A stretch of 32,444 bases of DNA, from the NCBI GenBank assembly GCA_002792275.1, contig PFOA01000081.1:1-32444 (forward strand), written 5' to 3'. The notes below the pieces were generated by a model. That model was given only the letters and a program-made list of their open reading frames with translations, did no database searches and had not been told where the DNA came from. The stretch is from Candidatus Saccharibacteria bacterium CG_4_10_14_0_2_um_filter_52_9. Lineage in GTDB: Bacteria > Patescibacteriota > Saccharimonadia > Saccharimonadales > UBA4665. This document shows, piece by piece, positions 20,338 to 24,099 of this stretch. Position 1 is the first letter of the stretch; each line of letters starts with the position of its first letter. The position numbers were made by a program, and so were the translations under genes.

Positions 20338-21345
20338 TTACAATAACCACGGCAGCTGCCTGGCTTGTTTGTAAGACAGGTGCATGGCTCGGTAACTACT
20401 AGCATTCCGGCTATTAATAGATTTATTGATTTTACGTGACATGGTTTTATCAATCACCGGCAGTTGCCTCGGATAAAGGTTATGCCCCAAGAAGTGCACA
20501 CCGTGCCGGGCTCGAATAATTACATCGTTCTTTTTATGAACTTTCAGAGAAAGTTTGTTAGACAACCACAGCGTCGCAATTTGCCTAGCCACTATGGCCG
20601 CCGGGCGATCCCGGAAGAACAGTACAAAATCGTCGCCATAGCGCACATAGGCCAGCGGTTTCAAAATGTGGCGGGCATAGCGGTCGAATTCGTTCAGATA
20701 GATGTTGGCGAAAATCTGGCTGGTCAAATTACCAATCGGGATACCCTGACTGACTGACTGACTGACTGACTGACTGACTGACTGACTGACTGACTGACTG
20801 ACTGACTGACTGACTGCATTTTCATAGCTGTCAATCACCTTGTCAAGCAAGTCCCGAGCCGGTGGATCTGAAACGATACGCTGCAAGCAACTCTTCAATA
20901 CCTGGTGATCAATGTGATCGAAAAACTTAGACACATCAGCCCGCCACAGCCACGCGCCGGAGTAATCAGTCATCAACCTACTAGTCCGTCGCAAAGCGGC
21001 GTGCAGACCCTTGCCTGGTCGGCAAGACCAGACATCAAAATCCAGACGCGGATCAACCAGCGGCACTAGGTAGTCATACATTAAGCGATGCACCACGCGA
21101 TCACGCACATTGGCGACGGCTATATCCCGACGCTTCTTTTCGCTGACAATTTTGTGATCATATGAGCCGTGCCGGTACTGTCCGTTATTTAGATCAGCAC
21201 ACAGCCGCAATAAATTAGTTTCCAGCTCACTTTCAAAAGCCATAACTGCCCGGCTGGGTTGCTTGCCGCGCCGAAAAGCCCGCCAAGATCGCCAAAGGTT
21301 TGTTAGACTAAGGTCTATGGAAGAACTGCCGGTCATCGCTGTCAT
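20338..21345 (-). CDS. DGR reverse transcriptase with an in-frame tetranucleotide tract
   Basis: A 335-residue reverse transcriptase of the diversity-generating retroelement type. The N-terminus (LTNLWRSWRAFRRGKQ... KKRRDIAVANVRDRVVHRLMYDYLVP) and CRPGKGLHAALRR match DGR RTs. Catalytic Asp 137 is in RADVSKFFDHID. Motif 4 GIPIGNLTSQ (201-210) has the SQ ending typical of DGR rather than the SP of group II introns, and YGDD (236-239) carries the other two aspartates. Residues 178-200 are a pure (SQSV)n run encoded by a CTGA tetranucleotide repeat, absent from usual DGR RTs. The enzyme copies the template RNA with errors at adenines. TATAAA (complement of 21354-21359) lies 8 nt before the ATG. 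The 5' end overlaps avd head-to-head. Confidence 0.93.
   Translation of the reverse strand: MTAMTGSSSIDLSLTNLWRSWRAFRRGKQPSRAVMAFESELETNLLRLCADLNNGQYRHGSYDHKIVSEKKRRDIAVANVRDRVVHRLMYDYLVPLVDPRLDFDVWSCRPGKGLHAALRRTSRLMTDYSGAWLWRADVSKFFDHIDHQVLKSCLQRIVSDPPARDLLDKVIDSYENAVSQSVSQSVSQSVSQSVSQSVSQGIPIGNLTSQIFANIYLNEFDRYARHILKPLAYVRYGDDFVLFFRDRPAAIVARQIATLWLSNKLSLKVHKKNDVIIRARHGVHFLGHNLYPRQLPVIDKTMSRKINKSINSRNASSYRAMHLSYKQARQLPWLL
20746..20816. repeat. Perfect CTGA tetranucleotide tract (17.75 units) inside the RT gene
   Basis: 71 bp of uninterrupted CTGA on the plus strand (TCAG on the coding strand). Because 4 and 3 share no factor, every frame encodes the same S-Q-S-V period with no stop, so the frame entering the tract is always open. 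Only a copy number matching the present one modulo 3 leaves it in the GIPIGNLTSQ frame. Both other frames stop within eight codons (…RVSRLVI-stop or GYPDW-stop), well before the YGDD motif. Confidence 0.97.
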
Positions 21346-21676: not shown

Positions 21677-21786
21677 CACCGCGAGGCGACCGTTGTTGTC
21701 ATTCTCGGCATTCGAGTTGTTCAAGTTCGGCTGGCCATCGTTGTTGACGATAGAGTTCGGGACGCCAGACCAGCCCCCGAACCGCT
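21677..21786 (-). repeat. DGR template repeat (TR1)
   Basis: 110 bp that align end to end with the variable repeat at 22052-22163. Read on the minus strand it is rich in AAC codons (conceptually RFGGWSGVP… then an N-rich stretch ending NGRLAV), the hallmark of a DGR template. All 16 substitutions against the VR fall on its adenines (16 of 26 A positions); no C, G or T position is substituted. The only other difference is a 2-nt insertion in the VR. It is probably transcribed as a non-coding RNA from the minus strand, towards avd and the RT. Confidence 0.95.
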
Positions 21787-22051
21787 ATATTTCCATCACG
21801 GTCTTTTCTGCCAGTCACGCATGACTGGCTTCTTGTTTCTCATTCCGCAAACCGGAATCGTGATAGCAAACGTGGGGTGTAAAGGGTTCTTGATGTGTCG
21901 GCGACACGACCGCTCCGAGGCGGTAACATCACTGAGCCGACAAAATCACACGAGGCACCGATAGCTTTCGCCTTGGATTACTTACCTCTTGTTTTAGATT
22001 GTAGCAAAAGAAAAAGGCTTCAGGAAAGCGGCAAAGCCCAAAACTTTACCC
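21787..22051. other. TR-VR spacer with several short perfect hairpins, no gene
   Basis: No supported coding frame. Perfect inverted repeats: CCAGTCA-4-TGACTGG (21811-21828), ATTCCG-5-CGGAAT (21842-21858), GTGTC-3-GACAC (21895-21907) and ACCGC-6-GCGGT (21909-21924). In characterised DGRs a hairpin just after the VR is needed for efficient retargeting and the template RNA extends beyond the TR, so these may be parts of the DGR RNA or retargeting structures. Which ones matter cannot be told from the sequence. Confidence 0.55.
22006..22038 (-). terminator. Probable intrinsic terminator of the DGR target gene
   Basis: On the minus strand GGCTT (22034-22038) pairs with AAGCC (22016-22020) across a 13-nt loop, followed directly by TTTTTCTTTT (complement of 22006-22015). 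The stem is short but the T-rich tail and the place, just after the target gene stop at 22046-22048, fit a rho-independent terminator. It may also be the VR-proximal hairpin. Confidence 0.45.
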
Positions 22052-22163
22052 CACCGCGAGGCGACCGTCGCTGCCAACCTCGGCAACCGAGTCGTTCAAG
22101 CGCGGCCGGCCATCGTAGAGGCGACGACAGAGTCCGGGACGCCAGACCAGCCCCCGAACCGCT
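22052..22163 (-). repeat. DGR variable repeat (VR)
   Basis: 112 bp at the 3' end of the target gene, homologous to TR1. Relative to TR1 on the coding strand there are 16 substitutions, every one at a template adenine (to G, C or T), plus one 2-nt insertion that looks like a CT duplication (GCCTAC to GCCTCTAC, around 22115-22122). The 5' part (RFGGWSGVP) and the last 15 bp before the stop are unchanged, the latter being the expected initiation-of-mutagenic-homology end. Confidence 0.95.
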
Positions 22164-22941
22164 TGGCGTCTAGATTGAAGTGACGGATATAGGTTTTGTA
22201 AAAGGCTTCGCTATCGCTCAAAGTATCGCCCGATGCCCGCAAAGTCTGCCAGTAGGTAACGGCTTCGAGTACACTTGGTACTTTCAGGCTTGGGTTAGCT
22301 TTTTGCATTTCCGCCAGTTTTGCCTGCTGTTTTACTACGGTGCCGGTCAGCGCTTCGTCAAACTTGCTTGGGATTAAGCTGAACATGACGTCATTCCCAT
22401 TTGACGGGTCAGTGCCGGCCAGTTCTTGGGGGCTATATTTCTTATACAGATTCTCATAAACAGAGGTTTCATATGGCTGTTGCTCACCAAAAGTTTTGGC
22501 CAGACGCTCTACTTCGCCTTTCTCAAGCTCTACATTGGGAGTAGCCACGAGCGTAAAACGCAACTCCGGATCGGCCTCCATAGCTGCTTGCACATAGGCT
22601 ACCTTTTCATCGGTCAGCCAGGTCTCAAATTCAATAGTGATTTCTGTCTCAGAGCCTATACTGACGCGGTCTTTAGTTTTGCGTCCGTCATCAAGTTTTT
22701 GAGTAAGCGTGTCGTAAGCAAGGTAGGCCGTATTCAGCTGGCCGTAGAGGCTTTCGCGAACCTCGTCTAACGTTTCTGGGTGTGTGGTGGCTTCAACTGC
22801 CACGGCAGCGGCCGCAAGCGGCAGCTCTAAACCCCGCACTTGAGCAGCTTCAGCGATTTCTTGAGCCGCACTAATTAGCCACTCATCTGATTGCTCTGCC
22901 GGATTGACTTGTACCGATATACCGTTGCCTTTAAGTTCCAC
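22096..22941 (-). CDS. DGR target protein, frameshifted within the VR (truncated to 281 aa)
   Basis: A 281-residue product as it stands. It starts at GTG (22941) with AGGAG 6 nt upstream and a strong promoter before that. It has no signal peptide or membrane helix; residues 20-85 and 195-260 look helical, and the middle is mixed. The end YIRHFNLDAKRFGGWSGVP leads into the VR, as in DGR targets of CPR bacteria. An extra CT in the VR shifts the frame, giving STMAGRA and a UGA at 22096-22098. Removing those two bases restores a VR-coded tail ending DGRLAVG and a TAA at 22046-22048 (297 residues). The VR domain is probably a C-type-lectin-like ligand-binding fold; the ligand is unknown. Confidence 0.85.
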   Translation of the reverse strand: MELKGNGISVQVNPAEQSDEWLISAAQEIAEAAQVRGLELPLAAAAVAVEATTHPETLDEVRESLYGQLNTAYLAYDTLTQKLDDGRKTKDRVSIGSETEITIEFETWLTDEKVAYVQAAMEADPELRFTLVATPNVELEKGEVERLAKTFGEQQPYETSVYENLYKKYSPQELAGTDPSNGNDVMFSLIPSKFDEALTGTVVKQQAKLAEMQKANPSLKVPSVLEAVTYWQTLRASGDTLSDSEAFYKTYIRHFNLDAKRFGGWSGVPDSVVASTMAGRA

Positions 22942-23013: not shown

Positions 23014-24099
23014 TTATGCGTGTAGTGAATACTCTAAAAAGGCGTCAATTAAAGGGTTTAAATTGCCGTCTAGTACGGCGTCGGGGTCGGAGGTTTCGTA
23101 CTTGGTGCGCAGGTCTTTGACCTGTTTGTAGGGGTGGAGAACGTAGCTGCGGATCTGATTGCCCCACTCGGCCGACTGGTTGGGGCCTTTTAGCTCGCCA
23201 AGCTGTTCTTTATGTTGCTCAAGCTGGAGTTGTGCCAGTTTTGATCTGAGGATGGTCATGGCTGTCTCTTTGTTTTGCAGTTGGGAACGCTCGTTCTGGA
23301 TGGCTACTGTGATACCTGTGGGAATATGCATCACCCGTACCGCCGAATCGGTAGTATTAACAGATTGGCCACCCTTGCCTCCGCTACGATAGACGTCGGT
23401 TTTGAGGTCTTTCTCATCTATGTCCAAGTCATCGGGGCGGTCTATCTTGGGCATCACCTCCACCTTGGCAAAACTGGTCTGGCGCAGGTTGTCGCTATTA
23501 AAGGGGCTCAATCGCACCAGGCGGTGAACGCCGTGCTCCCCTTTTAACTTGCCATACGCAAAAGCACCGTCTATCTCGATGGTAGCACTTTTAAGACCGG
23601 CCTCCTCGCCGGCCGACTCATCGATGTTAATCACCTTGTAGCCACTGGCTTCTGCCCAACGAACATACATCCTGAATAACATTTGTGTCCAATCCTGGGC
23701 ATCGGTGCCGCCGGCTCCGGCGGAGAGCGTAAGAATGGCGGCGTGGTCATCGTAAGGACCGTTAAATTTCAGCTCTTCCTTAAGTTCGTTAAAACCGGCC
23801 TCGGTCTCTGTCAATTGCTGGGTTAATTCGGCTTGCATGGTGCTATCTTTGAGTGCGGTCAGCTCAGCGATGTCGTTGCCAGCTTTTTGCAGTTTTTGCC
23901 ATGGTTTAATTCGAGCTTCTAGCCTGGCAATCTGCTTCATAACATCTTGCGCCTTGGCAGAATCATCCCAAAAACCGGAAGCCTGACTGGTAGTCTGGAG
24001 CCCGGCCAATTGAGTACTCAATTCATTGATTTTGAGACGTTCGACAGCTTTGTTGATCTGCTGCTGCAGATTAACAGATTGTTTAGCTAAATCGTCCAT
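23014..24099 (-). CDS. prfB: Peptide chain release factor 2
   Basis: A 361-residue RF2, which recognises UAA and UGA stops and triggers peptide release. The codon-recognition tripeptide SPF (198-200, RLSPFNSDNLRQTSF) and the catalytic GGQ (243-245, SGGKGGQSVNTTDSAVR) are intact. It is read in one continuous frame, with no in-frame UGA for the programmed +1 frameshift found in many bacterial prfB genes. TATACT (complement of 24107-24112) lies 7 nt before the ATG. An intact RF2 agrees with the use of UGA as a stop throughout the window. It is followed by the DGR, then ftsE. Confidence 0.97.
   Translation of the reverse strand: MDDLAKQSVNLQQQINKAVERLKINELSTQLAGLQTTSQASGFWDDSAKAQDVMKQIARLEARIKPWQKLQKAGNDIAELTALKDSTMQAELTQQLTETEAGFNELKEELKFNGPYDDHAAILTLSAGAGGTDAQDWTQMLFRMYVRWAEASGYKVINIDESAGEEAGLKSATIEIDGAFAYGKLKGEHGVHRLVRLSPFNSDNLRQTSFAKVEVMPKIDRPDDLDIDEKDLKTDVYRSGGKGGQSVNTTDSAVRVMHIPTGITVAIQNERSQLQNKETAMTILRSKLAQLQLEQHKEQLGELKGPNQSAEWGNQIRSYVLHPYKQVKDLRTKYETSDPDAVLDGNLNPLIDAFLEYSLHA

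Follow-up and report, generated by a model that had tools for sequence, protein, structure and literature searches.

Simple-sequence tracts as probable slippage switches in the reverse transcriptases of Patescibacteria DGRs, and a Saccharibacteria locus with a frameshifted target gene

Many DGR reverse transcriptases (RTs) of Patescibacteria are, we consider it likely, phase-variable: slippage-prone tracts, located in a loop ahead of a catalytic motif or near the N-terminus, would switch targeted hypermutation on and off, so that cells may either diversify a protein or freeze it. DGRs of the BPP-1 type are also known from Patescibacteria (CPR). The locus studied here is in a stretch of 32,444 nucleotides (‘the window’) from a Saccharibacteria draft genome of 784 kb in 92 contigs. 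Its RT gene contains a long tetranucleotide tract, and its target gene is frameshifted by two extra bases in the variable repeat (VR). For this locus, we favor as a fairly probable explanation that the two bases were gained in a recent retrohoming event, that the target is repairable, and that the RT is switched by slippage.

Judged by the pattern of its template repeat (TR) and VR and by its RT motifs (GxxxSQ-type and YxDD), the locus is a DGR (Table 1). The RT gene product matches RVT_1 (E=1.1e-17), and its best PDB sequence match is the reverse transcriptase 8ub7 (E=8e-27). The neighboring bAvd-like gene has a weak match to PF22296 (E=2.2e-7), its 31.8 bits being under the curated cut-off of 40. 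The two genes run divergently and share an overlap at their 5′ ends (21317-21345), an arrangement also observed in two relatives (L020 and L022). As in BPP-1-type DGRs, the TR and VR differ by substitution at adenines only, the RT has GIPIGNLTSQ and YGDD, and the target has its VR at the 3′ end. The product of the bAvd-like gene, by the weak match given above, may be the accessory protein of such a system. Unlike in those systems, the VR bears a frameshifting insertion.

Table 1. Positions of the DGR features in the window
Feature	Position	Strand	Remarks
DGR reverse transcriptase, 335 aa	20338..21345	-	In frame in the assembly; GIPIGNLTSQ, YGDD
Perfect (CTGA)17.75 tract	20746..20816	-	Inside RT coding sequence; encodes (SVSQ)n; proposed phase-variation switch
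Candidate accessory protein (bAvd-like), 112 aa	21317..21655	+	PF22296 bAvd match
Template repeat (TR), 110 nt	21677..21786	-	In-frame coding potential RFGGWSGVPNSIVNNDGQPNLNNSNAENDNNGRLAVK
TAA stop of the target family's usual frame	22046..22048	-	3′ of the VR
Variable repeat (VR), 112 nt	22052..22163	-	TR/VR alignment
Target gene of the DGR, 281 aa in the assembly	22096..22941	-	Start GTG 22941; stop UGA 22096-22098
Site of 2-nt excess	about 22116..22121	-	GCCTCTAC for TR AACAAC; exact bases ambiguous

The first-pass annotation had described an adenine-specific VR with two bases beyond the adenine substitutions, and the alignment with the TR bears this out. On the coding strand, 16 of the 26 TR adenines are substituted in the VR (11 A>G, 2 A>C and 3 A>T) while none of the 84 non-adenine positions is altered, which argues that the last rewriting was recent. 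The only length difference is the gain of two bases, with GTCAACAACGATGG in the TR and GTCGCCTCTACGATGG in the VR, and the TR itself is free of them. The GC-rich 3′ end GGTCGCCTCGCGGTG, where the VR of a DGR would have its IMH, is identical in both repeats. This TR has a single VR in the whole 784-kb genome, and no TR2 was found. The insertion would have arisen by slippage of the RT on the AAC AAC run in the course of a recent round of mutagenic retrohoming, or soon after that round.

It is also possible, though unlikely, that the two bases are an assembly or sequencing artefact, introduced where the assembler joined two VR versions at the most variable site of the population. The insertion does fall within a hypervariable repeat, in a 92-contig draft that was judged from its assembly. 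However, the VR is otherwise clean with changes at adenines only, two extra bases in a short-read assembly as a rule require reads that bear them, and interior VR indels are present in other, independent genomes. The last point comes from a survey of 82 TR/VR pairs in 75 loci, obtained by BLAST with altered scoring and looser filters and including a few loci present twice under two identifiers. Among these, 17 alignments are gapped, mostly near the repeat ends. Such end gaps were not scored as interior indels, and L084 and L066 were excluded on that ground. About five of the 82 pairs have interior indels: the window (+2), G356 (-1), L129 (+1), L114 (two single bases) and perhaps L096 (-2). The G356 case (G356:C12) belongs to the same target family as the window. 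An interior VR indel is thus not unique to the window. Most of these indels are at adenine runs of the TR, as one would expect if the mutagenic RT had made them, but five loci are too few to prove such an origin.

The early UGA that had been proposed to truncate the target does end its open reading frame 44 nt short of the VR end, and 3′ of the insertion the coding strand retains a frame that reads ...YDGRPRLNDSVAEVGSDGRLAVG-TAA, giving the expected tail ...DGRLAVG and the downstream stop. A search of the class gave target homologues in 18 further genomes. None was found in the single same-genus genome searched. We read the C-termini of 17 other sequences, one of them masked and one (G356) frameshifted in its VR. 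Most Saccharibacteria homologues have an RLAVG-like tail and about 300 aa or more, so the 281-aa end of the window target is abnormal, and among the homologues read only the window and G356 have shifted ends. As far as these homologues show, a short end is not the norm of the family, a possibility that the first-pass annotation had named as a refutation of its view. We therefore regard it as highly improbable that the 281-aa protein is the normal working form, even though it has a long reading frame whose conservation otherwise reaches about residue 266. A gene resembling a release factor (RF2 by eye) adjoins the target at 23014-24099; because of this by-eye call, a reading of UGA as a sense codon was set aside. 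No -1/+1 slippery heptamer was seen by eye in the sequence at the 2-nt insertion.

Alternatively, the DGR may be decaying, with the frameshifted target a dead gene. The same genome does contain a second RT, on contig C37, that is a 5′-truncated, out-of-frame remnant, and a further RT fragment on C57. Yet the RT, the bAvd-like gene and the TR of the window are all open, as the first-pass annotation had held for the TR; the lack of non-adenine differences indicates recent rewriting; and the VR 3′ of the insertion retains the frame and the stop of the family. Decay of the locus thus seems quite improbable. Since the machinery is open and rewriting appears recent, repair of the target by retrohoming from the intact TR is plausible. 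The tract in the RT gene should switch the enzyme on and off, so any such repair would depend on the state of the RT.

The (CTGA)17.75 tract, which the first-pass annotation did not note, is in a loop just ahead of the catalytic motif GIPIGNLTSQ and separates the catalytic domain into two halves. By computation, gain or loss of one or two CTGA units makes the RT stop at 202-209 aa, ahead of YGDD, instead of at 335. The loop (residues 179-200) has pLDDT<50 in a structure prediction. Unlike 8ub7, which has about 5 residues at this place, the window RT has about 29, a stretch built from the tetranucleotide tract. In sequence, the tract resembles a contingency locus: it is coding, its unit is not a triplet, and a change of one or two units is predicted to shift the frame. 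Genome-wide, (CTGA)5 occurs only in this RT and in the C37 remnant. That remnant (L023 918-1581, G000:C37) carries (GACT)23.75 and is next to sequence resembling an inverted bAvd; it was considered as an off copy of the RT and rejected because of its 5′ truncation. The C57 fragment (L024 2496-2801, G000:C57) has GNLTSQ and YMDDF in a 101-aa open reading frame.

Related RTs carry tracts with other units in the same loop: (AGAC)24.5 in L185, (AGCC)12.25 and (AGCC)14.25 in G245 and G356, (CTTG)8.5 in G027, G13 in G280, G9 in G262, and (CT)22.5 and (GA)15.5 in G379. The RT halves on both sides of the tract are readable in these genes. RTs of other Patescibacteria have (CA)17.5, (GA)8.5 and G11 in the tract loop. 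The tracts of L062 and L129 are in a different internal loop. Among 14 RTs with an internal tract, five are in frame (the window, L185, G245, L062 and L129) and nine are out of frame (G356, G027, G280, G262, two of G379, L098, L102 and L133); the five match the one third expected for random tract length, and because the set was partly gathered through split RT matches, the proportion of off copies may be an overestimate. Two RTs were left out of this count, the 5′-truncated C37 remnant and the second G245 RT at a contig end. In the latter (L136 19868-19932, G245:C24) the contig ends within a (TCAG) tract, where the assembly may have broken because the tract is variable. Two of the out-of-frame RTs, L137 (G280:C6) and L139 (G356:C12), also bear an in-frame nonsense codon, and some off RTs may therefore be pseudogenes. 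Two RT loci of different species that are 92% identical have (CT)14.5 and (CT)23.5, respectively; this difference of nine CT units (18 nt) preserves the frame and is the only length difference seen, with no other large gap.

The distribution of tracts was assessed in 80 RT loci chosen by sequence motif alone and not by repeats, with tracts called by a non-triplet period, a position in or near the RT, and fixed thresholds of our own choosing. A tract was found in or near the RT in 42 of these 80 loci, and the tract density is 0.54 per kb at the RT versus 0.043 per kb in the flanks (12-fold; Poisson P 9e-32). By record title, 34 of 55 loci from named Patescibacteria and 8 of 12 from unnamed bacteria bear tracts, compared with 0 of 13 from other phyla. 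In the viral set, 1 of 80 RT loci has a clear tract, namely L185, which closely resembles the window in both RT and target. Two others with tracts downstream, L204 and L194 (AATC x4, 3′ of the RT match), were counted as marginal. Many motif-chosen loci have poly-G or GA tracts near the RT N-terminus, after short coding stretches such as PQQISLFD; L096 and L120 have the stretch 5′ of the tract in frame, and L110 has it out of frame. At these N-terminal tracts, a switch might be bypassed by use of a start codon further downstream. A few tracts, for example the GT tracts of L071 and L080, may be non-coding owing to a start codon 3′ of them.

One could also regard the tracts as unimportant low-complexity linkers, or as bypassed by slippage in transcription or translation, with no switching of the RT. 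The tract does encode a loop that is predicted to be disordered and could tolerate changes in length, and homopolymers can cause transcriptional slippage. The units, however, are almost never multiples of three: of the non-homopolymer repeats of at least 15 nt in RT regions, 12-13 are non-triplet in period and a single one is triplet, an excess that argues against a mere linker. In addition, 9 of the 14 RTs with internal tracts are out of frame, relatives carry different units at one and the same loop, and tetranucleotide tracts are not known to act as ribosome slippage signals. We therefore consider it rather unlikely that the tracts are without a switching function.

Under the explanation that we favor, the DGR would copy TR RNA with adenine-directed errors and overwrite the 3′ end of the target gene with this copy. 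Replication slippage at the tract would leave the RT either in frame and on, as in the window, or cut before YGDD and off. With the RT on, the VR would be rewritable, and with the RT off it would be frozen. The Saccharibacterium would thereby alternate between diversifying the target and freezing a useful variant. The frameshift in the VR, by removing the conserved C-terminus, would give rise to a cell line with an unproductive target, and a later retrohoming event from the intact TR could replace the frameshifted VR as long as the RT is on.

Phase variation driven by SSRs is established at the contingency loci of Haemophilus, Neisseria and Campylobacter (e.g. PMC2651432). The RT tracts resemble these loci in being coding tetranucleotide, dinucleotide or poly-G tracts, in having about one in three copies in frame, and in having units that are not multiples of three. 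In contrast to the contingency loci of those three genera, the gene with the tract encodes an RT for targeted mutation rather than a surface structure or a methyltransferase, and switching is here predicted from sequence. In the open-licence literature searched, there was no report joining DGRs and phase variation, and we found no description of a DGR RT switched by slippage. Little is known about the on/off control of DGRs. Slippage in the RT gene would, if true, give uncultured bacteria a simple genetic means of turning targeted hypermutation on and off, and it could account for many of the broken-looking RT genes in assemblies. The frameshift in the VR suggests that mutagenic rewriting also yields dead variants, which the same DGR may overwrite.
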